A stretch of DNA of 64,000 nt from Candidatus Poribacteria bacterium. Its GTDB lineage: Bacteria; Poribacteria; WGA-4E; WGA-3G. A program made the translations under genes and the position numbers. Shown here piece after piece: positions 5,027-58,490 of this stretch; the first letter of the stretch is position 1; each line of letters starts with the position of its first letter. Where the stretch lies: positions 1-64,000 of the forward strand of contig JAJECN010000058.1 in NCBI GenBank assembly GCA_022821965.1. Direction: 5' to 3'. The notes below the pieces were generated by a model. That model searched no databases. It saw nothing but the letters and a program-made list of their open reading frames with translations, and was not told the origin of the DNA.

Positions 5027-5818
5027 CTATAGCCGGACAGATGGCGTGATGTCCGCCGCAAGTGTTTTAGCGACTGTCAAGTCAGCATTGGCTTTTTCCG
5101 TCTCTTTAAGGTGTCGCCACGCTTCGCCGCGGCTGCGATAGGCCTCAGCATGCTCAGGATCGCGTTGGATGACCTGGTTATAGTCAGCGATGGCTTTCGC
5201 ATACTCGGCATTTTTGGCGTAAGCCACACCTCGCCGGTAATAGGCTTTAGGGTACTCTGGCTTGAGTTCTATCGCAGTGTTATAGTCAGCGATGGCTTTC
5301 GCATGATTCCCGATGTAGCTGTAAGCGTTACCGCGCTTGATGTAATCCTCAACCACTTTCGGATTGAGTCTCAGGGTTGCCGTGTAGAACTTAATGTTTT
5401 CTTTAGCGTCTTCCATGCTCTCAATTTGGTCGGAGGGATAACCGCCATTGAGTTCCTGACACTGCCGTAGAAAGTTCATCGACCCAGCGACTCCGAGTGT
5501 TTTGGTAAGGACTCGACTGCCAATTTCATAGATTTCGAGATCCGTCATTTTCTGGATTTCGCTTTGACTCGCTGCAAATCGACGGGCACGGGCGCGTTCT
5601 TCAACTTCTCTGGTGGCCTCACGCTCTTGAATGTGCTTGACAATAGTGTCAATATCCGGTAAATTCGCTAACAATTGGTGTCGATCAACAGAATAATCAC
5701 CCGTACCAGGTTGACATTGCTGAATAAACCACTGCGTTTTGGCGGCACCGAGTTTAGCTAATAGGGCTTTGAACCCAAGTTCATAAATTTCACCATCAGT
5801 CATTTCCAATATATTCAT
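5027..5818 (-). CDS. TPR protein with duplicated N-terminal EIYELG domain, possible antitoxin
   Basis: 263 residues from the ATG at 5818, chosen for its GGGGGAGAGG ribosome-binding sequence. The N-terminus holds two copies of a module of about 40 residues: MTDGEIYELGFKALLAKLG...FIQQCQPGTGDYS and MTDLEIYEIGSRVLTKTLG...FLRQCQELNGGYP, separated by an E/R-rich helix. Three TPR units follow (AYSYIGNHAKAIADYNTAIE and relatives). The gene overlaps the upstream PIN gene by 23 bases, so translation is probably coupled. I infer that the duplicated module could bind the PIN toxin, as small proteins of this kind occur next to PIN genes, but nothing in the sequence proves this. Confidence 0.75.
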   Translation of the reverse strand: MNILEMTDGEIYELGFKALLAKLGAAKTQWFIQQCQPGTGDYSVDRHQLLANLPDIDTIVKHIQEREATREVEERARARRFAASQSEIQKMTDLEIYEIGSRVLTKTLGVAGSMNFLRQCQELNGGYPSDQIESMEDAKENIKFYTATLRLNPKVVEDYIKRGNAYSYIGNHAKAIADYNTAIELKPEYPKAYYRRGVAYAKNAEYAKAIADYNQVIQRDPEHAEAYRSRGEAWRHLKETEKANADLTVAKTLAADITPSVRL

Positions 5819-6281
5819 TTTCCTCTCCCCCCTGTAACCATGTATAAGGGTTGGCAACTTGGACGTAAAGGTTTAAACTACTACGCTTCGCCCTTCTGAG
5901 GATTCCATCATCTGTTGTTAGGAAAATATCCGCTTCGCCACTTTCTGAACAAGCAATATGCAAAGCATCCAATTCCTTAAACCCCAATGCCTCTAATTGT
6001 TTACCTCTTGTGATTTCCGGTGATCCAACTGCAACAGTCTGATGAGCAATAGTTAACCAATTCATGATCTGGGAACGTTGCCCTGGATCTGGCACCCGTT
6101 CTACTTCCTCCACCAAAACATTGCTAGATATCCAATGCCAGTATCCCATGCGTATCTGATCGAGAATTCGACTAATCGCTTGGGCTTCTCGACGAATCCG
6201 AGGTTGCCTTTGTTTATCAAAAAGCCTGCTCAAACAACAGGTATCGAAATAAATCCTCCAGCCTTGCAAATCAGTTTGCAC
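5796..6281 (-). CDS. PIN-domain ribonuclease (VapC-like toxin candidate)
   Basis: 161 residues with a GTG start. PIN-fold acidic residues are in place: D13 in IYFDTCCLSRL, E58/E59 in SSNVLVEEVE, D105 in FKELDALHIA and D124/D125 in FLTTDDGILRR. These coordinate metal ions for RNA cleavage in VapC-type toxins. The gene is first in a three-gene run (PIN, TPR, radical SAM) and overlaps the TPR gene by 23 bases. No small VapB-like DNA-binding antitoxin is present on either side, so the TPR protein is the only candidate partner. Slightly longer than the usual VapC of about 130 residues. Confidence 0.85.
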   Translation of the reverse strand: MQTDLQGWRIYFDTCCLSRLFDKQRQPRIRREAQAISRILDQIRMGYWHWISSNVLVEEVERVPDPGQRSQIMNWLTIAHQTVAVGSPEITRGKQLEALGFKELDALHIACSESGEADIFLTTDDGILRRAKRSSLNLYVQVANPYTWLQGGEENEYIGND

Positions 6282-16006: not shown

Positions 16007-16540
16007 CTAAAGAAGCTTAGCGTTCGCAGTGAGAATAGGTATTTCCTGAGTTTTGAAATCGCCATCGTTTGTTATTAAAGTGAATCCATTGTTTTTGCAG
16101 ATTTCTGTTATGACTTGATCATTGAAGTCGTAATCACCAGTGGCATAATCATTGAGCAGATTGTCCATGCCGAGCGTTTCAAAGTCGCTTTCAATCCGTG
16201 AACAGTGCTTCATAATTTGTTTGACATCATCAACAATATTCTTAGCGACGGGTTTGAAACCTTGGCTATTGCGAAAATCTTTAAATTGATTGATGCGCGG
16301 TGCAATAAGTTTCCATCTCACTCGAGCGTAGCTGTTGATAAACTCTGAAACAACAAGAACATCAATGTAAATTCGGCTTTTTGCTTGCAGAATGCGGTTA
16401 AAAGCGTTGGTGTAGATAGACCTCCAATAAGTGCTCAGTTCCAGCGAACCTGACACATACAACCAGATATTAGCATCCAAAAATAGTCTGTCTTGGGAGG
16501 TAAAGGGGTAGTGCTGCACCGCTGCAGCTTTATGGTTCAT
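16007..16540 (-). CDS. PIN-domain protein paired with a STAS-like protein
   Basis: 177 residues. Conserved acidic positions of a PIN nuclease are present: D22 in LFLDANIWLYV, E66 in VVSEFINSY, D138 and D141 in GDYDFNDQVI and D159 in LITNDGDF. Its ATG lies inside the 3' end of the STAS-like gene (11-base overlap), so the two are translated as a unit with the STAS-like protein first. That order and overlap resemble toxin-antitoxin operons with the antitoxin upstream. The target RNA is unknown. Confidence 0.8.
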   Translation of the reverse strand: MNHKAAAVQHYPFTSQDRLFLDANIWLYVSGSLELSTYWRSIYTNAFNRILQAKSRIYIDVLVVSEFINSYARVRWKLIAPRINQFKDFRNSQGFKPVAKNIVDDVKQIMKHCSRIESDFETLGMDNLLNDYATGDYDFNDQVITEICKNNGFTLITNDGDFKTQEIPILTANAKLL

Positions 16541-31158: not shown

Positions 31159-32049
31159 ATGGTTCGACACCTGACTTTGCTTTTCCTCCTCATTTCAGCA
31201 TCCATCACGGTTTCTAACCCAGTCAGGGGTGAAATATTCACGGAAAGTGGGTTGGTGGATATACCAACGGGTAATGTATTGAAACACGGGATATTCGGGG
31301 CAAGCACGTATATCGCCTTCCAACATCCTTCTGAAAATACATCCCTAACTAACGAGAATAACGCCCTCGGCGATGCCGTTGCGGTTCGCCTTAATTTTGG
31401 GCTGCTCGATCGGGTTGAAATTGGACTGACACATCTGTGGAATGAACACGGTTCTGAACCTTCCACCGAACGGACTGGAAATCTGAAAGTGCAACTCTTA
31501 AGGGAACAAGAGGTTGGGGCAATTCCGAGTGTGGCGATAGGGATTGAGAACGTCGGCAATAAACTTCTTCCATGGGACTCGGAAGCGGAAGCAAATGAAA
31601 CCCCTTCAGCGTTTCTTGCGATCAGTAAAACCTTTAACTTGCCGCGGATTCACCAATTCTCTGGACACATCGGTATGGGGACGCAGCGTTTTGCGCTTGA
31701 GGAAAGCCCTATGGGTCTATTTGTTGGGTTGAGCAAGGAATTTCAACCGGCTTTCGCGAGAGGTGATATTACGACGAGTTTGGAATTCGATGGGACAGGT
31801 GTGAACGCGGGGCTGCGGTATATCACGTCAAGTGGACTTCAGGTCGCACTCGGTGCCGAGACGTTGAACAACCCAGACGAATTAAACTATCTCGTTGTCG
31901 TCTCATGGTCAAATGAGCAGATGCTTGAACAGATCAAGGAAACGAGACGACTCATCACACAAGCAACAAAACTTATAATCGAGGCAAAACGCGCGATTGC
32001 TGAGATAAGAAAAGTGGATAAAACTACTGAGACACCTTCGCCTCAATAG
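31159..32049 (+). CDS. Outer-membrane beta-barrel protein, YjbH-like
   Basis: 296 residues. Signal peptide (LTLLFLLISASITVSNPVRG), then FTESGLVDIPTGNVLKHG, a hallmark of the small YjbH-like barrel family, and repeated amphipathic strands (LLDRVEIGLTHLW, SVAIGIENVG, SSGLQVALGAET). The C-terminal 45 residues switch to a helical, coiled-coil-like tail (LIIEAKRAIAEIRKVDK), unlike a typical barrel end. It is immediately downstream of rpiA and overlaps the convergent OmpA-like gene by 26 bases. Confidence 0.75.
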   Translation: MVRHLTLLFLLISASITVSNPVRGEIFTESGLVDIPTGNVLKHGIFGASTYIAFQHPSENTSLTNENNALGDAVAVRLNFGLLDRVEIGLTHLWNEHGSEPSTERTGNLKVQLLREQEVGAIPSVAIGIENVGNKLLPWDSEAEANETPSAFLAISKTFNLPRIHQFSGHIGMGTQRFALEESPMGLFVGLSKEFQPAFARGDITTSLEFDGTGVNAGLRYITSSGLQVALGAETLNNPDELNYLVVVSWSNEQMLEQIKETRRLITQATKLIIEAKRAIAEIRKVDKTTETPSPQ

Positions 32050-32926
32050 ATTCCATCACTTTTTGGAGCGATGTCAGCAGTTCAGATAAAAAATCTTGGG
32101 GTGGCACGAGTATAATTTCGATCCTCCGATTTTTGGCTTTTGCTTCCGGTGTTTCGGCGGTATCTATGGGTTGATAGAAGGCGTATCCTGTCGCAGCTAA
32201 ACGTTCCGCACTGACGTTGGCGTGTTCTTGCAAGTATTTTACAGCGGCGATTGCGCGTTCGGTGGAGAGGTTCCAATTCCGCAGTGCCGAGCCGCCGATA
32301 GGTGTATTGTCCGTATGTCCCTCAATCCGTATCGCGTAATCCGAATAGTCTGCGTTTAGCAACACTTCTTCCGAAATTGCGTCCAGAAGTTCTTTTCCTT
32401 CGGCACTCAGAATCGCGCTGCCTGTTTCAAACAGAATTTTCCCTTTAACATCAAGTGTCAATCGTCCTGCCTCATCTAACACAGCACCCACTGTATCTTT
32501 AAACCGCTCTTGGATAGCCGCAATTGAACGTTGCGATTGCTCCCGAATCCTCTGTAATTCAGATTCAATCTCAGTAAGTTTTGCGCGGAGACTTTCTTTC
32601 TCTTGCTCAAGTGCGCTTTTGTCCTGCTGGAGTGCGTTCCGTTCAGCTGCGATTTTCCGAGCGGCTTCGCTTGCATTTTGCAATATCTCCTGCGTCTGGC
32701 TGAGTTCTGAACGCGTCTCCTCCAGCGTGGCTTGCGTTTCAGCTAACTTCTTTTCCAGATCGACTTTAGCGGTCTCAGTCGTTTGCAAAGTCGCTTTGGT
32801 CGTCGCCAATTCCGTCTGTGTCTGTTTGAGTTCGTCCGAAGTTGAATAGAGCATTACTGCCAAAACGATGGCAACAATAGCAGCAATACAGATAGATACG
32901 ATCGCCAGAATTCCTTTTTTAGACAT
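32024..32926 (-). CDS. OmpA/MotB-domain protein with long coiled coil
   Basis: 300 residues: an inner-membrane-type anchor (ILAIVSICIAAIVAIVLAVM), about 130 residues of uninterrupted coiled coil, then an OmpA-like peptidoglycan-binding domain (about 160-285). The latter has IRIEGHTDNTPIGG, NWNLSTERAIAAVKYL, RLAATGYAFYQP and AKNRRIEIIL. Anchor plus coil plus OmpA is the MotB/TolR-side architecture and spans membrane to cell wall. ATG overlaps the RNHCP gene stop by eight bases with AAGGAG in front. It is last of the AAA-Toprim-RNHCP-OmpA chain. Confidence 0.88.
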   Translation of the reverse strand: MSKKGILAIVSICIAAIVAIVLAVMLYSTSDELKQTQTELATTKATLQTTETAKVDLEKKLAETQATLEETRSELSQTQEILQNASEAARKIAAERNALQQDKSALEQEKESLRAKLTEIESELQRIREQSQRSIAAIQERFKDTVGAVLDEAGRLTLDVKGKILFETGSAILSAEGKELLDAISEEVLLNADYSDYAIRIEGHTDNTPIGGSALRNWNLSTERAIAAVKYLQEHANVSAERLAATGYAFYQPIDTAETPEAKAKNRRIEIILVPPQDFLSELLTSLQKVMESIEAKVSQ

Positions 32927-33224
32927 TTATTTCTCCTTGTAGGCTAAGGATGGCTTCAAAGTTATCATTTTTTGATGTCTTGTTCTTTTTTTCTATGCCG
33001 CACGTCGTGCAGCGGTGTGTCAGGATATAATTGCCGTGCCTTACGGTAAACCCTACCGGTTCCATCAACCCTCGACAGGACGCGGACCGGTCACCGGGGT
33101 TCACATCAACGTGCTGGCTCCAGAGACATTCTGGACAGTGGTTGGTGTAGCCATCTCCTTTGACAGCGGCACCGCAATGTGCGCAGGTGAAATCTTCAAT
33201 GTGGCGTTGGAATCTCTTTTTCAC
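32919..33224 (-). CDS. RNHCP-domain zinc-binding protein
   Basis: 101 residues with a GTG start overlapping the Toprim stop by four bases (GTGA). Contains FTCAHCGAAV, the NHCPECLWSQHVD segment that gives the RNHCP family its name (here TNHCPECL), GDRSASCRGLMEPVGF, and HRCTTCGIEKKNKTS: three cysteine pairs for structural zinc. The family has no known function to my knowledge. The overlaps tie its expression to the Toprim and OmpA-like genes. Confidence 0.85.
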   Translation of the reverse strand: MKKRFQRHIEDFTCAHCGAAVKGDGYTNHCPECLWSQHVDVNPGDRSASCRGLMEPVGFTVRHGNYILTHRCTTCGIEKKNKTSKNDNFEAILSLQGEINV

Positions 33225-33832
33225 TGGCTATCACGCGTCCCAATTACTTGACTGATTCGGTCTAATGTTCGTTTTAAGCTTGGAGAGGCGGTAGCGGCGC
33301 GTTCCAAATCCCAGTGGTCTTGAACGAATTCGCTTAAAAGCGTGTTATATTGATTACCAATGCCGAGTGTTGAACCTTGTGTCGGTACTAATGCTTCACG
33401 GACCATTTTCTTTTTACTTCTTCGGGCGAGTGACAAAAGAAACTCTTTGGGGTTCAAAATGTTGTCCGTCGACGACGGGATTCGATGCAAGGGGACAGAT
33501 AGAAAAGCTGCAAATCCCATCCGATCCGCCATCACCCAAGCTTCAACCTCCATAACTGCCACACGAAAGAAAAATTTTGGATTGAGAGGTCCTTTAATCC
33601 ACGAGCGGATAAGTCTTGGTGGGCACTCCCGGGGCGAGTCTAAATCTGTCAAGAGAAAAATAGCTGCTCCATTAGCAGATCGATTGAGTTCGGGTGCTTT
33701 TTGTCGAAGTGGAACATTTCCCTTACCTCGAATCGTGTACCAAATTTCAATGTCAAAATGTCTAAGAATTTGCGTTGAAATTGATTCGCTAAGTTCATCC
33801 TCAACCGCCAAGATTACGTTGGTTATGCTCAT
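33221..33832 (-). CDS. Toprim-fold nuclease-like protein (DUF4276/RloB-type)
   Basis: 203 residues. A Toprim-like arrangement is visible: acidic E11 in ILAVEDELSES, and D63-x-D65 in IFLLTDLDSPREC. A later conserved acidic pair lies in VEAWVMAD. In AAA-plus-Toprim systems this protein is the nuclease, using metal bound by the E and DxD. The start ATG overlaps the AAA gene stop by four bases (ATGA). The family name is from memory and uncertain; the Toprim motif itself is clear enough. Neighbours: AAA ATPase upstream, RNHCP protein downstream. Confidence 0.7.
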   Translation of the reverse strand: MSITNVILAVEDELSESISTQILRHFDIEIWYTIRGKGNVPLRQKAPELNRSANGAAIFLLTDLDSPRECPPRLIRSWIKGPLNPKFFFRVAVMEVEAWVMADRMGFAAFLSVPLHRIPSSTDNILNPKEFLLSLARRSKKKMVREALVPTQGSTLGIGNQYNTLLSEFVQDHWDLERAATASPSLKRTLDRISQVIGTRDSQ

Positions 33833-34980
33833 TCTGGTAAAACCAACCCCCCAATATGCTTAGGGTGGGTTTGCGGGAGTACAACTTCACCTACTGTAAA
33901 CCCATTCTTAAGAAGCACACATACATCATCAAAATCAGAGGAAGGTTTGACTACCGTTCCTTCTTTGCTGGGTGTGAGCATTAGAACCTCTCTACCATCA
34001 ATGCCGGGTTCTATAAGCAGGACATCGCTTTGCGTGCTAACCAACACCTGAGATCCTCGATTTCTTTGCAGGCGCGAGATAGAAGGCGCGAGTTTAGAAA
34101 CGATGCCCATGTTTAAAGAGAGTTCCGGTTCCTCTAATAATATGACTGAGTTGCTTTCAAGAAGAGACCACAAAAGTCCAATAAGACGAAGCATTCCATC
34201 CGAAAATTGGTCTTCGTGCTGTTCTTGTTCATTTGAACGCCAGTGTGAGTAATGTGCTTGTAGGTGCGGACGACCTCTGTTGTCACGAATAAATTCCAAT
34301 TTTTCAAACTGCGGGACAGCGATTTTGAGGGTCCGTTCAATCCTTTTGAGGCGAGCATGACGGGTGCTCGGATGCACACCCGCGACTCTTTCAAGGAAAG
34401 CCTGACCAAAAGGGTCGTCTTCAATAATTTTACCTTGTATCGAATCAGCGAAACGAATGAGTTGCGGGACCAGATGGAGATAGGTGACATTCCGAAGAAA
34501 TCCGCCAATCTCTCGGAACTTCGCATTGGCAGCGATCTGCTCAAGTGCGGTCTGGGTAAGGCGATCTGGATCTTCGTTGTCATCTGCATCCGGTCTATCA
34601 AGAAGGAGTTCATCCTCTCTCCAGACGCGCTCATAAGTGAGATGCGTTTGGCAATGTCCAAGATCTGCTTGACGAAACCCGATGCTATATCGCCACATGG
34701 CAGAGGCATCTGGCGTGTCCGCGATATGAATTTCGATGGCAATCTCTGGGTCTTGCCCCACGGATAGGCACCGAATTTTGGAAACACCACCTCGGTCATT
34801 GATTGCTTTTTGGAGACCGCCACCTTCGGCTTTCGCGATATCGCGGAGAAAACGAAAAATGTCTAACAGGTTAGATTTACCTGACGCATTTGGACCGACA
34901 ATAAACTGACGCTCCCTGAGAGGAACATTAATCTGTTGAAAATTCCGCCAGTTTTTTGCAATAAGCCGATTGATAATCAT
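33829..34980 (-). CDS. AAA family ATPase (AAA_21/OLD-like)
   Basis: 383 residues from the ATG at 34980. The 44 extra upstream codons are not conserved-looking. Walker A GPNASGKS (29-36), Q-loop region, signature-like FSDGMLRLIGLLWSLLES, Walker B with VILLEEPELSLN, then QVLVSTQSDVLL in the H/switch position, where the usual STHS is STQS. It is an SMC/ABC-like ATPase of the sort that partners Toprim nucleases in OLD-type and abortive-infection systems. It begins a four-gene chain of overlapping reading frames and lies 145 bases downstream of the WD40 gene. Confidence 0.88.
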   Translation of the reverse strand: MIINRLIAKNWRNFQQINVPLRERQFIVGPNASGKSNLLDIFRFLRDIAKAEGGGLQKAINDRGGVSKIRCLSVGQDPEIAIEIHIADTPDASAMWRYSIGFRQADLGHCQTHLTYERVWREDELLLDRPDADDNEDPDRLTQTALEQIAANAKFREIGGFLRNVTYLHLVPQLIRFADSIQGKIIEDDPFGQAFLERVAGVHPSTRHARLKRIERTLKIAVPQFEKLEFIRDNRGRPHLQAHYSHWRSNEQEQHEDQFSDGMLRLIGLLWSLLESNSVILLEEPELSLNMGIVSKLAPSISRLQRNRGSQVLVSTQSDVLLIEPGIDGREVLMLTPSKEGTVVKPSSDFDDVCVLLKNGFTVGEVVLPQTHPKHIGGLVLPE

Positions 34981-35125: not shown

Positions 35126-37249
35126 TTAAACGTCTATGAAGGGTTTTAGATCCCACAGCAGGATTGTGCAGTCGTGACTTCCACTTGCGAGAAGCGTGTT
35201 GTCTGGCGAAAAGGCGAGCGACTGCACATCCGTTGGATGTCCCCAAAAGGTAGTAATCTCCTCACCAGTAGCAACATCCCACAACCGAATTGTCATCTTC
35301 GCCATTCCTTCCTCCCTCCGCCACCAAGTCCCCGATGCGAAATATTTACCACACGGTGAAAAAGCGAGGGCGTACGGCTTCTGTGTCTGTGGCTGCGGTA
35401 TCTCCAAAAGCGTTGTTAGCGTTTCGGCGCACCATAACCGAAGTTCACCGAACATCCCTGTAGCAATTATGCCGCCACACGGTGAAAACGCTACCTTCAT
35501 AAATGTACGAGGTTCATCTAAGGGAAATGTCGCAATTTGTTCACCCGATGCAGTATCCCACAACCTGGAGGTTTCATCGCTTGAACTACTGACCAGTCGC
35601 TTGCCATCCGGTGAAAACGACACCGACCATACGAAATCTGTATGCCCTGTGAGCGGTTTCAACTTTTCGTTACGTTTGAAATCATATAGATAGATTGTAC
35701 CTTCTCTACTTCCGACTGCAAGTCGTTCGCCTATCGGGGCAAATGCGGTTTTCCATATCAATTGTGCCTGTTCGGTTTCAGTAAATTCAGCAATCGGTTC
35801 GTCAGGTTTCTCAGCATCCCACACCGTAACATTTTCGTCTTGCACATTGGCAGCCAGCATTTTTCCGCACGGCAAAACAGTAAAAGAAGAGATACGTGTG
35901 TTCTTTAGTAATGTTTCCCGACTCTGCTTACGTACAACGTCCCATAACACAATACCGGTGCGATATCCTTTTGTCGCCAGCGTCTCTCCGTCTGGTAAAA
36001 ACAGTACGGGATCTGGATAACAAGCAAACTCACGAAGCGTTGAAGATGTATGAATATTACCAACCTCAGTCTTTTTGTCGGTAATAGCCGAGTGTGGAAA
36101 TTTTTTAAACCATTTGGCATCAATACTCTTCGGGTGCAATTCGATCGTGTGTAGTTTTTCACGACGTTCCATATTCCAAATCTCAATCGTATCTTGCCTA
36201 TCAACAGCAGCAAGTAACACACCTTCTGGTGAGTAGAATGGCTCTTTCGAGGATTTACCTGAGTCCGTATAAACCATCTTTTGTACATCCTTTCGGAGTT
36301 CCCATACACGCAGTATTTTTTCTTCACCATCTTCACCCCTTGATGCAGATGATGCTAAGAATAGACCACATGGTGAGAAAACAATACGATGACCCCACTT
36401 GCTATGTTCTGTGAGGTAAGCGAAGCGTTCACCCGTCGCAATTTCCCATACAGAGATAAAATTGTAAATACTATCGGCAGCCTCAGTTTTGCTTAAGGTT
36501 TCATCCGGACACGCACACGCTATCAGACGACTGTCCGGAGAAAAGACAAACTTACTACCCGCAAACTTGATAATCGCTTCGCCTGTTTCCGGGTGCCATA
36601 CGTAAGTTTGCGTGCCTTCCGTGTCAGGGTTAATGAGTTTACCGTCGTGGACCGAATAAAGTTTAGGATTGTGAACTGTCGCAGCGAGGAATTTGCTGTC
36701 TGGCGAAAACTCAAGATGGGAAACATCGTTCGATTCCGTATCACGTTTCCCTCGATCCATCTGTGCGATGCACTCACCTTGATGAATATCCAATACTTCA
36801 ACATTGCCATCTTGATTCGCGGTGGCAATCCACTTGCGATCTGGAGAAAAGACAACACGTGCATAGATATTCTGCTCTTCCATCCGCTTCATCTGTGCGA
36901 TGCACTCACCACTCCGAACACCCATCACCTTGAGGATACCATCCCAATTGGCGATAGCGATCCACTCACCATCCGGTGAAAAATCAGCACTGGCGATCAA
37001 CCCTCGCTCCGTTTCCCATAACGCAATCGGTGACTTTGACGACATTTCATACCACCAGAGTCCTATACGAGTTTGAACGGCGAAATACACACCGCCGGGT
37101 GGGAGTGCCAGTTTCGGTCCCGCACCAGATAATACAATTCCTTTTCCCAATCGGGCGATTGCGCCTTCTGGCAATGCCCATGTTGTCCCTTCAGGGTCAC
37201 CTGGAACAACGTTAAGTGGTGCTGGTCTGCGGCTTTGCATGATATTCAC
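35126..37249 (-). CDS. WD40 beta-propeller protein, paralogue 1
   Basis: 707 residues composed almost wholly of WD40-type repeats (SFSPDGKRLVSSSSDETSRL, AFSPDNTLLASGSHDCTILL and a dozen more), enough for two seven-bladed propellers. It starts with SRRPAPLNVVPGDPEGTTWA and LPEGAIARLGKG, a head found in its upstream neighbour. No signal peptide and no enzyme domain. Probably a cytoplasmic protein-interaction scaffold. It lies 34 bases behind paralogue 2, so they form a tandem pair. Near-identical stretches suggest recent duplication or gene conversion, with differences concentrated in the middle blades. Confidence 0.88.
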   Translation of the reverse strand: MNIMQSRRPAPLNVVPGDPEGTTWALPEGAIARLGKGIVLSGAGPKLALPPGGVYFAVQTRIGLWWYEMSSKSPIALWETERGLIASADFSPDGEWIAIANWDGILKVMGVRSGECIAQMKRMEEQNIYARVVFSPDRKWIATANQDGNVEVLDIHQGECIAQMDRGKRDTESNDVSHLEFSPDSKFLAATVHNPKLYSVHDGKLINPDTEGTQTYVWHPETGEAIIKFAGSKFVFSPDSRLIACACPDETLSKTEAADSIYNFISVWEIATGERFAYLTEHSKWGHRIVFSPCGLFLASSASRGEDGEEKILRVWELRKDVQKMVYTDSGKSSKEPFYSPEGVLLAAVDRQDTIEIWNMERREKLHTIELHPKSIDAKWFKKFPHSAITDKKTEVGNIHTSSTLREFACYPDPVLFLPDGETLATKGYRTGIVLWDVVRKQSRETLLKNTRISSFTVLPCGKMLAANVQDENVTVWDAEKPDEPIAEFTETEQAQLIWKTAFAPIGERLAVGSREGTIYLYDFKRNEKLKPLTGHTDFVWSVSFSPDGKRLVSSSSDETSRLWDTASGEQIATFPLDEPRTFMKVAFSPCGGIIATGMFGELRLWCAETLTTLLEIPQPQTQKPYALAFSPCGKYFASGTWWRREEGMAKMTIRLWDVATGEEITTFWGHPTDVQSLAFSPDNTLLASGSHDCTILLWDLKPFIDV

Positions 37250-37283
37250 TCCTTAACAGATTTGGCATTCAGCATCCGTTGCT

Positions 37284-39365
37284 TTAAGAACCGATGAAGG
37301 GCTTCACATCCCAGAGCAGAATAGTGCCATCAAAACTTCCACTCGCCAGCAGTGTGCCATTTGGTGAAAAGGCAAGTGACTGCACGTCCGTTGTATGACC
37401 CCAGAAGGTATGGATATTCTCACCTGTGGCAACCTCCCACAATCGGATTGCCATCTTCTCCATTCCCCTTTGCCACCAAGTCCCCGATATGAGATACTTA
37501 CCACACGGCGAAAAAGTAAGGGCATCATACGTCCGTCGGCTGTTCTCAGTTTGCGGTATCGTGCGCAACGTTGTCAGTTGCTCAGCGCACCATAATCGGA
37601 TTTCATTGTCCATTCCTCCCGCGATTATCTTACCACACGGCGAGAACGCTATCCCTTCAGTGCAGCGAGGTTCATCCAGAGGTAGTGTCCCAATTTGCTC
37701 GCCTGATTCAACATCCCACAAGCGAGTGGTGTCATCGCTCGCCCCGCTGGCTAACCGCTTGCCATCTGGCGAAAACGCCAGCGATGTAACGTAATCCGTA
37801 TGTCCGGTAAGCAGCGTTGGCTCCTCTGGGTTCTGGAAGTTCCATACATAAACCGTGCCTTCTCTGCTCCCCGCTGCGATCCGATCACCAGTGGGAGCGA
37901 ACACCTCGTGACGCACCCATTCTGAAGGTTCTTTAGGTGCTGTGAACTCAGCGACAGGTTCGTCCGAATTGCTGGCATCCCATACCTTGGTCTCATTGTG
38001 GAGGCGGGTGCCCAGTATCCTTCCACAAGGCAAAACAGTGTACGTATAAATATTCTCATCCTTCAACAATGTTTCGCGTGGACACTTCTGGGCAACATCC
38101 CATAATTCAATACCTGGATAATCGCGGGTACTTACGAGCGTTTGGTCATCCAACCAAGCTACTTTCGGATAGGGCCATGGGAAATGGGGTTCACGAAGTG
38201 TTGGGAATGTTTGTGTTTTGCCATCCGTCCGTTTGTTGGACAGCGCGTAGGCGACAGCCAACTGTGGACATCTGAAAAACCACATCGCACCAACGCTCCC
38301 TCTCAAAAGCTCAATTGTTTGTAGTTTTTCACCGGATTCTACACAGCAGATGTCAATGGCTACAGTCGTTTTCTCATAGCGAAATATGGCAGTCAATAAC
38401 TGCCCCTCTGGTGAGTAGAATGGAAGTCCCCAATCTGTTTCGGAGTTAGTATAAACTTTGTTTTCTATACCCGCTGCGAGGTCCCATACGCGCAAACTTT
38501 TATCTCTACTACTCGACACAATAAATTTACCACACGGCGAAAAGGTTATATTCTCCACCCAATCCGTATGCGCTGAGAAGTGCGAGATCCGTTCACCGGT
38601 TGTTACATCCCACACTGAGACGCAGCAGTCAACGCGATCAGCAGCACCGGAGGTTTCGTCAGCAGCTGCACCTGCCAACAGACGACTGTCCGGAGAAAAG
38701 ACAAAATTTCCACCAGCAAACTTGACGATTGCCTCACCTGTCTCTGGATGCCATACGTAAGTTTGTGTGCCTTCCGTGTCAGGATTCAGAACCTGTCCAT
38801 CACGTGAAAGTTGGGGGTTGTCCACTGTAGCGGCGAGAAGTTTGCCATCGGGCGAAAATTCAAGCTGGTGAATATCATTCGATTCAAATTCGCGCGCGCC
38901 TCGGTCCATCTGTGCAACGCATTCACCGGTATGGATATCCAATACCTTCACAACCCCATTCATCACTGCAATAGCAATCCACCTGCCGTTCGATGAGCAG
39001 GCAAGCCCACCAAAAGCGTCTTGACCCTCCATCTGCGTGACGCACTCTCCGGTTTGAACGTCCAATACTTTAATGACTTGATCCCAACTGCCAATGACAA
39101 TCCATTTGCCATCATGAGAAAAATCAACAGAACTAATTAGTCCGCGTTCCGTTTCCCATAACGAAATCGGCGACATTGAGGAGACATCATACCACCAAAG
39201 TCCTACTCCTGTTCCAACGGTGAAATACGTGCCATCAGGAGATAGTTTTACATCACCTACGTCCCCTTTTCCGAATCGGGCAATCGCGCCTTCTGGTAAT
39301 GCCCATGTTGTCCCCATGGTATCCTCTGCCACTACATTGAAGGGTGCAGGTCTTCGGTTTTGCAT
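37284..39365 (-). CDS. WD40 beta-propeller protein, paralogue 2
   Basis: 693 residues, head QNRRPAPFNVVAEDTMGTTW followed by ALPEGAIARFGKG. It aligns over its whole length with paralogue 1, but several loops are shorter and a block of the middle (EKTTVAIDICCVESGEKL) differs. Regular WD units such as AFSPDGKRLASGASDDTTRL and AFSPNGTLLASGSFDGTILL define the blades. It follows the M20 peptidase gene by 16 bases on the same strand. The role is unknown; both copies may gauge or scaffold something through their variable surfaces. Confidence 0.88.
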   Translation of the reverse strand: MQNRRPAPFNVVAEDTMGTTWALPEGAIARFGKGDVGDVKLSPDGTYFTVGTGVGLWWYDVSSMSPISLWETERGLISSVDFSHDGKWIVIGSWDQVIKVLDVQTGECVTQMEGQDAFGGLACSSNGRWIAIAVMNGVVKVLDIHTGECVAQMDRGAREFESNDIHQLEFSPDGKLLAATVDNPQLSRDGQVLNPDTEGTQTYVWHPETGEAIVKFAGGNFVFSPDSRLLAGAAADETSGAADRVDCCVSVWDVTTGERISHFSAHTDWVENITFSPCGKFIVSSSRDKSLRVWDLAAGIENKVYTNSETDWGLPFYSPEGQLLTAIFRYEKTTVAIDICCVESGEKLQTIELLRGSVGAMWFFRCPQLAVAYALSNKRTDGKTQTFPTLREPHFPWPYPKVAWLDDQTLVSTRDYPGIELWDVAQKCPRETLLKDENIYTYTVLPCGRILGTRLHNETKVWDASNSDEPVAEFTAPKEPSEWVRHEVFAPTGDRIAAGSREGTVYVWNFQNPEEPTLLTGHTDYVTSLAFSPDGKRLASGASDDTTRLWDVESGEQIGTLPLDEPRCTEGIAFSPCGKIIAGGMDNEIRLWCAEQLTTLRTIPQTENSRRTYDALTFSPCGKYLISGTWWQRGMEKMAIRLWEVATGENIHTFWGHTTDVQSLAFSPNGTLLASGSFDGTILLWDVKPFIGS

Positions 39366-43531: not shown

Positions 43532-43560
43532 CAACTACCCAAGCCTAAAGACTTGGGGTT
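43532..43560 (-). ncRNA. Probable 3' end of the TnpB guide RNA (omega RNA)
   Basis: On the minus strand the last codons and stop of tnpB lie in ACCCCAAGTCTTTAGGCTTG, followed by GGTAGTTGAC. This forms a 6-7 bp hairpin, as at right ends of IS605-type elements. In known systems the guide is the sequence after the right end; here that would begin around TATGCACTTGCGAGC. The true 5' end is probably inside tnpB. The boundary is inferred, not measured. Confidence 0.5.
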
Positions 43561-44840
43561 GTAACAGCGTCAAACAGCATGAGCTGCTTAGCGTGTTTAA
43601 AACCCGCGGTCTTTGTTGCTTCGTTTGTGTTTCTCGCTTCAGTGAGGGTGGCAACCCACCGCTCTCCACGAAAGGCAGCAGCTGCCTTAAAAAGTATGTT
43701 TCGTGCAGCGTTGTGGTCTCGGTCTAAAGCCATGCCACAAGACTGACACTTAAAAGTTCGTATCGCCAGCGAAAGTTTCTTTGGCGACTTCTGACCGCAG
43801 CAGGAGCAAGTTTGGGATGTATTCTTGGGATCAACTTGATGGAAGTGGAAACCGTCTCTTTCGGCTATGTTTCCACACCACTTAAAGAAGGTTGCCCAAG
43901 ACGCATCGGAAATGCTCTTGCTGAGGTGTTTGTTCTTTACCATATTGGATACGCCTAAATCTTCTGCTACCAGCACATTGTTTGCTTTATGGTGGTAGAG
44001 TTTATAGACGAGTTTACCGATAAAGTCTTTGCGTTTGTTTGCTGTCCGTTCATGGTGTAGGGAAAGTTTGTGTTGTTGTTTCTTTCTACGGTTAGAACCT
44101 AACTTTTTACGCGATAGATCTTTAGAGTGTTTTCGTAGCAGTCCTTCAGCTTGACGATACCAACGAGGGTTATTTTCCTTTTCACCTTCGGAAGTCGTCA
44201 AATAGTGTGTTGTTCCAACATCAACAGCGATCGCATCTGTCGGTTCAACTTTCGGCGTATCAGGAAGTTCACAGGTAATATGAGCATACCACCCCGACGC
44301 TTTTTTGACGAGCGAAACTTCTTTCGGATCGCCTTGCAGCGGGCGGTGCATGTAGATTTTGACTTCGCCAAGTTTCGGCACTTTCAAGCGGTCATGTTTC
44401 CATGCTGTTTCTCGTATCGGGTTCTCGCGGACGCGTATCGTCTGTTTGTCAATCTCTTTTGTCTTTTTCCGAACGACTTTGGTATATTTGCGGAGACTCC
44501 AAGTCAGAGAACGCACACGCTTTTTGTAGCGAGGATACCCTTTTTTCGCAGCTCCGTTCTTACAACGCCTGCGGAAATTCACGAATGCCTTATCGTTTCT
44601 CCGTAGGGCGTGGTTCTGAAAATCTTGTGGCACTTCTCGGAAATCGTCATACTTCTCACGCGCTGCCTTTAGGAGTTGCTGCTGCTCATTCAGCGAAACA
44701 AAAGCACCTTCAGTCTCATACGCAACAAGCCTATCGTGGCGCGCAGAGTTCTGAAGGTCGCAAAGGTGGTCAAGCCACTTAAACAACGTTGTCCCCTGTG
44801 TCTGTGTCGGATACACAGGATATTTGAAAGTCAGTTTCAT
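43545..44840 (-). CDS. tnpB: RNA-guided endonuclease TnpB (IS200/IS605 family)
   Basis: 431 residues, full length. The RuvC residues are intact: D207 in IAVDVGTTHYL, E293 in VLVAEDLGVSNM and D375 in LDRDHNAARNIL. The zinc finger is C345-x2-C348 with C365-x2-C368. An N-terminal WED/REC-like region (KYPVYPTQTQGTTLFKWL, and so on) precedes them. TnpB cuts double-stranded DNA next to a TAM using the right-end-derived RNA, and helps retain the element. The gene appears functional, being free of frameshifts. Promoter: a TATAAT at 44937-44942. Confidence 0.95.
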   Translation of the reverse strand: MKLTFKYPVYPTQTQGTTLFKWLDHLCDLQNSARHDRLVAYETEGAFVSLNEQQQLLKAAREKYDDFREVPQDFQNHALRRNDKAFVNFRRRCKNGAAKKGYPRYKKRVRSLTWSLRKYTKVVRKKTKEIDKQTIRVRENPIRETAWKHDRLKVPKLGEVKIYMHRPLQGDPKEVSLVKKASGWYAHITCELPDTPKVEPTDAIAVDVGTTHYLTTSEGEKENNPRWYRQAEGLLRKHSKDLSRKKLGSNRRKKQQHKLSLHHERTANKRKDFIGKLVYKLYHHKANNVLVAEDLGVSNMVKNKHLSKSISDASWATFFKWCGNIAERDGFHFHQVDPKNTSQTCSCCGQKSPKKLSLAIRTFKCQSCGMALDRDHNAARNILFKAAAAFRGERWVATLTEARNTNEATKTAGFKHAKQLMLFDAVTTPSL

Positions 44841-55819: not shown

Positions 55820-57289
55820 ATGCCTAAACTGGTTGTCAAGAACTTCATAAATATCCGTGAAGCAGAGATCGATATGGATAAAACCTTAGTGGTTTTTATT
55901 GGTGAGACAGCCAGTGGGAAAAGTGTCCTTGCGAAATTATTGTATTTCTTCCAAGAGTTAATCCGCGACTTTCGGCAACACATCAGACAAATTAATACAC
56001 ACCCCTCAGAATATTTGCAAACCCCCGGGCAAGAAATGTCCACGGTATTCCAGGCACAAATCGCCCGCAAATTCCGAGAGTTTTTTGGTGATGCCGAGGG
56101 GGTCTCAAAACCGGTTGCGAAAAGTCAGAAGACTACCGGACAAAAATCGACTGAGGAAAAAGAGGGAACCACAAAACCCTTTGAAATCACTTACCACTAT
56201 ACACGGGAAAGTGCTATCAGACTGACGTTAACCGATGAGAAAACGCTTCATATTGTGTTACCTGATGTTATGGAGGAAGTCGAAAGTCTCTGTTACAACT
56301 TGCTGGAGAAGTTGCAACAGATTGACACAAAACAATTCGATAGTGTTCCAACAGAAAACGATTCACCCGCAAAAACAGATACAACCTCAGAAGACGATCA
56401 AAACATCCAAAATACCGATCGATTCTATTATATTCTGAACATGGCGATCGGAATGAGTGACATCACTGAGAAATTAGCAGGTAAATATCGCGACAGTCTT
56501 TTTATTCCTGCAGATAGAAATATCGCAACCAACTATCCGGATGCCCTTAAAAGGATTTTTTACGGCGGTATAAAAAGCGATCTCCACACGCGCGCCGCAG
56601 CCCGTTCACGCGTGAATCTTCATCTCATCGCACGCTTTTTGGAAAAAAACGAGGAATTCCTTGATACTTTTAGTACACAGAACTTTCGGAACCTTTTTGA
56701 CCAAAGAATTGAGGAGGAATCAGATGAAGTTGATAAACCTATGATGGAATTCCTACTGAAAAAAATTTCTTATATCTTAAACAGCAAATATGAAACGATC
56801 GGAGAGATTTCCCAATCAAGACTCTTTTCGCACCCAACCGGTGAGAACACAACTTTTTTAGAACATGCCTCGACAGGGCAGCAAAACGTTATCCGAATCC
56901 TACAAGATGTGTTCATGAGCATGCTTTACAATGAAATGATTTTTCGCGTGATTGAAGAACCGGAAGCACACTTGCATCCAAAAACACAGAAGCATCTCAT
57001 GCACATCATCGCCCTGATGCGAAACCACATTGACAGCCAAATCATTCTGACAACCCATAGTCCGTATCTTTTGGCGGTCCTCAAAAACCTTTTAACCGCC
57101 GGACAACTGGCACAAAAGAATCCAGACGCTGCTGTTGAGATAGAAGCGCGTGTCTCAAAGTTATGTGGGCTAACACCGGACGATGTCGAAGTCTACCACC
57201 TCAAAGATGGGATAAGTCATCCGATTGTTCAACCTAAAAAAGAACCGGTTCTCGAAAATCCGCTTGCGGACCTTCTTACAGAATTTTAA
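55820..57289 (+). CDS. AAA family ATPase, SMC/RecF-like
   Basis: 489 residues. Walker A GETASGKSVLAK (28 onward). A variable middle of about 300 residues includes a charged, low-complexity linker (KSQKTTGQKSTEEKEG) and a D/N-rich stretch. It ends with the signature ASTGQQNVIRILQDV, Walker B IEEPEAHLHPKTQKHLM and the switch segment ILTTHSPYLLAVLKN. This is the AAA_21-type ATPase used as sensor or regulator in many anti-phage systems. The next gene, an ion channel, starts 43 bases later on the same strand. Confidence 0.88.
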   Translation: MPKLVVKNFINIREAEIDMDKTLVVFIGETASGKSVLAKLLYFFQELIRDFRQHIRQINTHPSEYLQTPGQEMSTVFQAQIARKFREFFGDAEGVSKPVAKSQKTTGQKSTEEKEGTTKPFEITYHYTRESAIRLTLTDEKTLHIVLPDVMEEVESLCYNLLEKLQQIDTKQFDSVPTENDSPAKTDTTSEDDQNIQNTDRFYYILNMAIGMSDITEKLAGKYRDSLFIPADRNIATNYPDALKRIFYGGIKSDLHTRAAARSRVNLHLIARFLEKNEEFLDTFSTQNFRNLFDQRIEEESDEVDKPMMEFLLKKISYILNSKYETIGEISQSRLFSHPTGENTTFLEHASTGQQNVIRILQDVFMSMLYNEMIFRVIEEPEAHLHPKTQKHLMHIIALMRNHIDSQIILTTHSPYLLAVLKNLLTAGQLAQKNPDAAVEIEARVSKLCGLTPDDVEVYHLKDGISHPIVQPKKEPVLENPLADLLTEF

Positions 57290-57332
57290 CTGTCCGCCAC
57301 CTCACCCTACAAAATCAAGGTAAAAGAGACAG

Positions 57333-58490
57333 ATGTACGAAAAGCATGGAGAAACAATCAAAGCACAAACCTTCCTTGACGCATTACAAAGCGACGCTGC
57401 ATCAGTCACTTTCACAAATTGCACGATTGAAGGGGTTGTTGATTTCTTTTTTCGAGAATGGGAACGCGACGAAAACCACCGGATTCTGCTGAATAAGAAA
57501 CTTTCTTGTATCGGGTGCACATTTAAAAACATCGTCAATTTCCGGACGGTCGTCTTCCAAGAAGAGGTGAATTTTCGGCGCTCCCTCTTTGAAGCAGATA
57601 TTGACTTCGATGAAGCCATTTTACACGCCCCCTGCGCCTTCCGCGAAGCCATCTTTCAGAGGCGTGCTGATTTTCATAGCGCGATCTTCCACAAGAGTGC
57701 CAGCTTTTGGCGGGCAAGATTTCACAATGTCGCCGACTTCCATGGTGCCCACTTCAACGAAAACGCCGTTTTCCATGAGGCTAATTTTCTAATTGAAGTC
57801 AACTTTCGCCGCGCGCTGTTCCAAGGCATGCTCGATTGCACAGGCACATGGTTTCCTGAAACGTCAGCGTTCAATAACGCCACATTCTTCGGAACCGCTA
57901 ACTTTACCGGTGCACAGTTTGTCTCTGTCGCTGCCTTCCGCGATGTTCAGTATATTCCAGACACGCTCTTGCATGCAGTGAAAGCGAAACTCAGTAGAAA
58001 ACTGCATCGTCCCACTGCGTTCTATTTGGAGAGCCGTCATATAGACGAAGTCGCGAACCCATTTTTCAAACGGTATGTCGGCGATCAGCAGTTCATACGT
58101 GCGTTCAATCAGGCGAACCCTCTCTTGGCAAAATTATGGCGATGGAGTTCGGATTATGGACGGAGTCTGGGGCTTTGGGCACTCTGGTCGGTATTTTTTG
58201 CGATTCTGTTTACGCTTGCGTATATGCCGTTTCCGGAATGGTTGCCGGCATGGATTCAAGACTGGGCACCGCGTTTTCATCAAACGACGGGTTTCTATAG
58301 TGGCCGGACGTTAACCTTCTCGGACTGCTTCTATTTTAGTGTCGTAACGTTCACAACACTCGGTTTTGGGGATGTCGTCGCCGACAACGCTTCTGCACGC
58401 TTCCTTGTCGCACTGGAGGTAATTTTTGGATATGTGATGTTGGGTGGGTTGATTAGTATTTTCTCAAATAAACTGGCAAGTCGGAGTTAA
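57333..58490 (+). CDS. Pentapeptide-repeat protein fused to a potassium-channel domain
   Basis: 385 residues. Residues about 60-215 are pentapeptide repeats (A/F-x-F-x-x-A/x pattern: VNFRRSLFEADIDFDEAILH, ADFHSAIFHKSASFWRARFH), a right-handed beta-helix. The C-terminal 110 residues hold two membrane helices (LGLWALWSVFFAILFTLAYM; ARFLVALEVIFGYVMLGGLI) around a pore loop FSVVTFTTLGFGDVV. TLGFGD at about 342-347 is a potassium-type selectivity filter. A gated channel coupled to an ATPase next door fits a membrane-depolarising effector; a housekeeping channel is the alternative. Confidence 0.88.
   Translation: MYEKHGETIKAQTFLDALQSDAASVTFTNCTIEGVVDFFFREWERDENHRILLNKKLSCIGCTFKNIVNFRTVVFQEEVNFRRSLFEADIDFDEAILHAPCAFREAIFQRRADFHSAIFHKSASFWRARFHNVADFHGAHFNENAVFHEANFLIEVNFRRALFQGMLDCTGTWFPETSAFNNATFFGTANFTGAQFVSVAAFRDVQYIPDTLLHAVKAKLSRKLHRPTAFYLESRHIDEVANPFFKRYVGDQQFIRAFNQANPLLAKLWRWSSDYGRSLGLWALWSVFFAILFTLAYMPFPEWLPAWIQDWAPRFHQTTGFYSGRTLTFSDCFYFSVVTFTTLGFGDVVADNASARFLVALEVIFGYVMLGGLISIFSNKLASRS

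Follow-up and report, generated by a model that had tools for sequence, protein, structure and literature searches.

A four-gene overlapping chain in Candidatus Poribacteria probably combines a HEC-01 AAA–Toprim pair with an unrelated resident RNHCP–OmpA-like pair

Composition of the overlapping chain

The window considered here is a 64,000-nucleotide stretch of DNA, contig C19 of the 5.7 Mb genome of a Candidatus Poribacteria sponge symbiont. Its minus strand carries a chain of four genes that encode an AAA ATPase, a Toprim nuclease, an RNHCP protein and an OmpA-like protein, in that order, with consecutive genes overlapping by 4, 4 and 8 bases (ATGA, GTGA and ATGTCTAA, respectively). The four open reading frames and these overlaps had been described in a first-pass annotation of the same DNA and are confirmed exactly by the reading frame coordinates.

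33829..34980, minus strand: AAA/ABC-type ATPase (HEC-01A), 383 amino acids; proposed sensor/regulator
33221..33832, minus strand: Toprim nuclease (HEC-01B; DUF4276-like), 203 amino acids; proposed effector
32919..33224, minus strand: RNHCP protein, 101 amino acids, zinc-ribbon-like; resident gene outside the AAA–Toprim module
32024..32926, minus strand: OmpA-like protein, 300 amino acids; resident gene paired with RNHCP
33200..34400, no strand assigned: tract (C-terminal half of the AAA gene plus Toprim) whose ancestry differs from that of its flanks; exchanged by recombination

The ATPase start at 34980 is the one found in homologues; in the window the reading frame caller had placed an upstream extension to 35112. 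Short overlaps alone are ordinary: 9 of 42 same-strand neighbours overlap in a crude reading frame call of the window, this chain's three included. A promoter scan found promoter-like sites to be no commoner than in shuffled sequence, while terminator-like sites numbered 8 against 3.0 in the shuffles; the same scan placed no terminator-like site between chain genes that would clearly split the chain. The four genes are presumably co-transcribed.

The first two genes correspond to HEC-01 (Hma-embedded candidate 1), a candidate defence pair catalogued in PADLOC. The ATPase matches HEC-01A over its full length (E 4.1e-142; residues 1-380 on profile positions 1-379 of 382) and the Toprim protein likewise matches HEC-01B (E 4.5e-59; residues 1-196 on positions 1-197 of 204). 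The two genes are adjacent, with their 4-nucleotide overlap, and follow the catalogued order, so that nothing essential differs from HEC-01; the sole difference is that the pair here lies ahead of RNHCP and OmpA-like genes in an operon. Our literature search found no paper, and hence no experiment, on HEC-01; activity has been shown for several HECs, HEC-06 among them (PMC12988326). Against Pfam, the ATPase matches AAA_21 (E 1.5e-37) and the Toprim protein gives a weak match to DUF4276 that falls under the cut-off (E 3e-5).

The residues expected of an active pair are conserved. The ATPase has Walker A (GPNASGKS) and Walker B (LLEEPELS) motifs, with K35, S36, E283 and E284 invariant among homologues. 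The acidic residues of the Toprim protein are E11, D63, D65, E97 and D103; among 35 homologues E11 and D63 never vary, and D65 is conserved in at least 90%. This Glu/DxD and Walker A/B conservation accompanies a class 4 OLD architecture, in which the ATPase and Toprim subunits are encoded by separate genes (PMC10568477, PMC12796447), here adjacent. An AlphaFold 2 model of the ATPase (predicted local distance difference test score, pLDDT, 84) has PtuA (Z 20.8) and AriA (Z 19.5) as its best structural matches. The Toprim model (pLDDT 89.5) best matches the class 2 OLD Toprim domain 6nk8 (Z 8.7, root-mean-square deviation 3.9, 159 aligned), and also resembles the PARIS protein AriB (8ux9, Z 7.9); Toprim proteins of OLD or AriB make up all six of its best-scoring chains. 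A PDB sequence search with the Toprim or RNHCP protein returned no significant relative. Together, the HEC-01 profiles and the structural matches of the models support the earlier assignment of the AAA and Toprim genes to a defence-type, OLD/PARIS-like module.

A comparison with characterized systems places the pair near several of them. Like AriA–AriB of PARIS, a class 4 OLD system, it divides ATPase and Toprim between two neighbouring genes and the two models resemble their PARIS counterparts, but the Toprim protein, at 203 amino acids, is about 100 shorter than the matched AriB chains (305-306). All eight PADLOC families that it matches are HEC-01B and none is AriB, and the ATPase matches the AriA profile PDLC02980 (E 4e-33) far more weakly than HEC-01A and over the same extent as the generic AAA_21. 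Membership of PARIS was rejected, since no AriB profile matches the Toprim protein. The ATPase N-terminus is related in sequence to Gabija GajA (E 8e-13), yet OLD and GajA carry on one chain the two domains that are split here, and Gabija has a helicase (GajB) that this locus lacks. MADS MAD3, Septu PtuA and AbiL share the ATPase superfamily (NCBIfam MAD3 E 1.8e-19, far under the cut-off) but have partners other than the HEC-01B/DUF4276-like Toprim found here.

The second pair of genes has a different character. The RNHCP protein matches PF12647 (E 3.4e-30; 104.3 bits against a cut-off of 24) and has invariant cysteines at C14/C17, C30/C33, C50 and C72/C75. The OmpA-like protein combines a hydrophobic N-terminus and a coiled coil with a C-terminal OmpA peptidoglycan-binding domain (PF00691, residues 165-267; E 2.6e-19; 69.8 bits against a cut-off of 27.2), a layout that predicts a membrane-anchored coiled-coil protein. 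Its match to ZorB of Zorya (E 4e-19) runs through the common OmpA/MotB peptidoglycan-binding domain and no ZorA-like gene is adjacent, so Zorya was rejected. A literature search on DUF4276 and RNHCP proteins found nothing useful.

Retention, decay and exchange of the AAA–Toprim pair

We compared the locus across the whole genus (38 genomes) and in 18 genomes from two sister genera, g18 and g19, that carry RNHCP; the relatives at this locus are Candidatus Poribacteria metagenome-assembled genomes. The gene order is constant: an M20 peptidase, none to at least three WD40 genes, the optional AAA–Toprim pair, RNHCP and the OmpA-like gene, beyond which YjbH-like and RpiA genes lie on the opposite strand. 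The tandem WD40 genes ahead of the AAA gene (window 35126-39365, minus strand) vary from none to at least three between close relatives.

RNHCP is present in 38 of the 38 genus genomes. The AAA–Toprim pair is intact in 18, and in one more (G022) it is split by contig ends. It is lost or broken in 19: in 11 it is absent with RNHCP kept, in five the Toprim gene is damaged beside an intact AAA gene (G001, G013, G018, G026 and G083), and in three both genes are damaged (G004, G008 and G016). The 16 genomes of g19 show a similar range, with seven intact pairs, two with damage to Toprim only (G066 and G070), one with damage to both genes and six without the pair. A 3' scar of Toprim remains in G010 and G077; because the last Toprim bases stand directly ahead of RNHCP in G010, absence of the pair from that genome is a loss.

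Damage falls preferentially on Toprim. The Toprim gene is broken beside a full-length or nearly full-length AAA frame in seven genomes, and the opposite is found in none. With targets of 203 and 383 residues, the chance of seven Toprim lesions in seven is (203/586)^7 = 6e-4, and of five in five 0.005, on the assumption of random, independent lesions, which some lineages may not satisfy; the G001 and G026 lesions could be sequencing frameshifts. The pattern would fit a costly Toprim effector held in check by the AAA protein, much as AriA sequesters AriB in PARIS (PMC12409363), and supports the sensor/toxic-effector split expected of the candidate system HEC-01.

The pair is also exchanged. Between the window and its nearest relative, G001, identity is about 70% over 33200-34400 (about 1.2 kb, covering Toprim together with the AAA C-terminal half), whereas RNHCP, OmpA and the flank downstream are 90-96% identical for most of their length. 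Synonymous divergence (dS) is correspondingly 1.6-2.2 in the tract and 0.17-0.32 in RNHCP, OmpA and the flanks. The ratio of nonsynonymous to synonymous divergence (dN/dS) is 0.10-0.17 for intact copies of the pair, in keeping with purifying selection. High dS with dN/dS near 0.1 suggests that the tract was imported rather than released from selection. G000, G001 and G008 lie close together in a FastTree tree of concatenated flanks, and an approximately unbiased test on the C-terminal half of AAA rejects a clade of these three (p 5.3e-6). The differing ancestry of tract and flanks, taken with the absences and damage above, thus indicates independent exchange and decay of the pair.

Profile searches of six-frame translations identified 14 further loci with AAA and Toprim genes and neither RNHCP nor this OmpA-like gene (L097-L102, L159, L160, in which Toprim is truncated, L162, L163, L164, L191, L194 and L195). 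They lie in other Poribacteria, in Proteobacteria and on two contigs of the virus collection IMG/VR that have prophage-type genes. On one of these contigs the pair (L194:3829-5597) shares its stretch with terminase small subunit and HNH endonuclease genes; on the other (L195:3310-5042) it follows a phage-repressor-type gene and a CII-like regulator, both regulators of cI/CII type. No RNHCP was detected in the proteobacterial host genomes of L162, L163 and L164 or in the Poribacteria genome G047, and in AGPOR5 the RNHCP and AAA–Toprim genes are on different contigs. Second copies of the pair occur elsewhere in G001 and G005. A tblastn search with Toprim against plasmids and GenBank phages gave no match, and in one outlier, L192, the relative of Toprim stands beside no recognisable AAA gene.

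Two further observations concern these standalone loci. Within L191, an 11 kb proteobacterial locus, AAA and Toprim are matched a second time, at another position and in diverged form. Standalone copies in three Poribacteria genomes (L101:6218-7818, L160:7316-8053 and L102:216-950) lie a few kilobases from near-identical genes that we labelled phytanoyl-CoA-dioxygenase-like from their sequence, without a search; these neighbours suggest a second common site.

RNHCP and the OmpA-like gene have their own distribution. The two adjoin in nearly all g1 and g19 genomes and are separable, the OmpA-like gene being missing from G022 and G035. The g18 genomes have RNHCP with neither AAA–Toprim nor an OmpA-like gene beside it, a proteobacterium (L193) has an RNHCP gene with neither partner nearby, and a search of viral contigs for RNHCP found none. 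Most relatives in the genus share the -4 overlap of Toprim with RNHCP and the -8 overlap of RNHCP with OmpA. The RNHCP start is unchanged in genomes that lack Toprim, and in G011 a GTGA overlap is formed with the upstream peptidase gene in place of Toprim.

A probable two-module operon, and competing readings

We consider the chain most probably to be two unrelated modules in one operon, a split OLD-type (PARIS-like) HEC-01 pair and a resident RNHCP–OmpA-like pair. In the mechanism we propose, the ATPase would act as an ABC/SMC-head-like scaffold that senses infection and otherwise keeps the Toprim subunit inactive. Once triggered, the Toprim nuclease would cut nucleic acid (host tRNA if it acts like PARIS, DNA if it acts like OLD and Gabija) and so halt growth or phage replication; the anti-phage role, the division into sensor and effector and the nuclease substrate are all predictions by analogy. 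RNHCP and the OmpA-like protein, the pair resident in this Poribacteria family, probably serve to bind zinc and to tether the membrane to peptidoglycan, respectively.

Several observations weigh against this interpretation. The ATPase model is equally close to SMC/Rad50 heads, so its fold by itself is no proof of defence, and Toprim Z-scores of 7-9 are modest. The pair has been kept at one chromosomal site over two genera, longer than is typical of mobile defence genes, in a neighbourhood that is housekeeping-like and is not itself a defence island; this site loyalty is the pair's least ordinary feature. Finally, G020 is unusually near G000 across OmpA, RNHCP, Toprim and AAA together (dS 0.39-0.65, against 0.9-1.6 outside), the four genes having recent ancestry in common with the G000 lineage as one block; at least one transfer has therefore carried all four in a tract of about 3 kb. 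Ordinary homologous recombination accounts for that event without a common function.

The same long residence, with purifying selection and a chromosomal, non-island setting, would suit a cellular job for the pair in DNA or RNA metabolism rather than an anti-phage one, as for Cran1, an OLD protein of class 5 from archaea with a role in progression through the cell cycle (PMC12796447). We regard this as unlikely, given that 19 of the 38 genus genomes have the pair missing or damaged and that it exchanges alleles, has second copies in two genomes and occurs on contigs with prophage-type genes. Slightly less likely still is an addiction module of the toxin-antitoxin kind, in which Toprim would be the toxin and AAA its restrainer and which would persist without sensing phage directly: the one-sided Toprim damage and the sequestration of AriB by AriA speak for it, but it does not alone explain carriage beside prophage-type genes and it overlaps largely with the defence reading.

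A genuine four-gene system in this clade, with RNHCP and the OmpA-like protein as sensor, anchor or guarded target of AAA–Toprim, is very improbable despite overlaps that are maintained in most of the genus genomes carrying the pair, the same gene order in g19 and the apparent block transfer in G020, because its parts are separable: RNHCP is universal in the genus though 11 genomes lack the pair, both partners are missing at the 14 standalone loci, g18 has RNHCP alone, and the AAA C-terminal half and Toprim are exchanged without RNHCP or OmpA. The first-pass annotation had favoured neither such a defence system with a membrane component nor a tightly packed operon; the latter is the better description, and the former was rejected. 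When gene order was followed as that annotation had proposed, both outcomes that it had named as refuting were observed: RNHCP and OmpA-like genes did not stand beside AAA–Toprim at the 14 loci elsewhere, and the chain broke in close relatives. Nor, at those 14 loci, were the four genes together in unrelated backgrounds. Most doubtful of all is that the pair uses or guards the resident RNHCP–OmpA envelope pair, the four forming a defence unit specific to the clade whose trigger is linked to the membrane, which, if true, would explain its long residence at one site. Reading the chain as two modules thus removes a false four-gene "system" and leaves a natural history in which the HEC-01 pair keeps to a fixed site, is lost, leaves scars, exchanges alleles and is damaged preferentially in Toprim.

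Other features of the window

The window contains a second OLD/AriA-type ATPase, of the AAA_15 family (55820-58490, plus strand; PADLOC AriA E 1.2e-34), followed after 43 bp by a protein of pentapeptide repeats that carries an ion-channel domain (Ion_trans_2) at its C-terminus; these neighbours could be a membrane-effector defence module. A TnpB/Cas12f-like OrfB protein (PF07282, PF01385) is encoded at 43545-44840 on the minus strand. Two PIN-domain genes lie on the same strand at 5796-6281 and 16007-16540, the second of which shares 11 bp with a DUF4325 STAS-like gene in a possible toxin-antitoxin-like pair.

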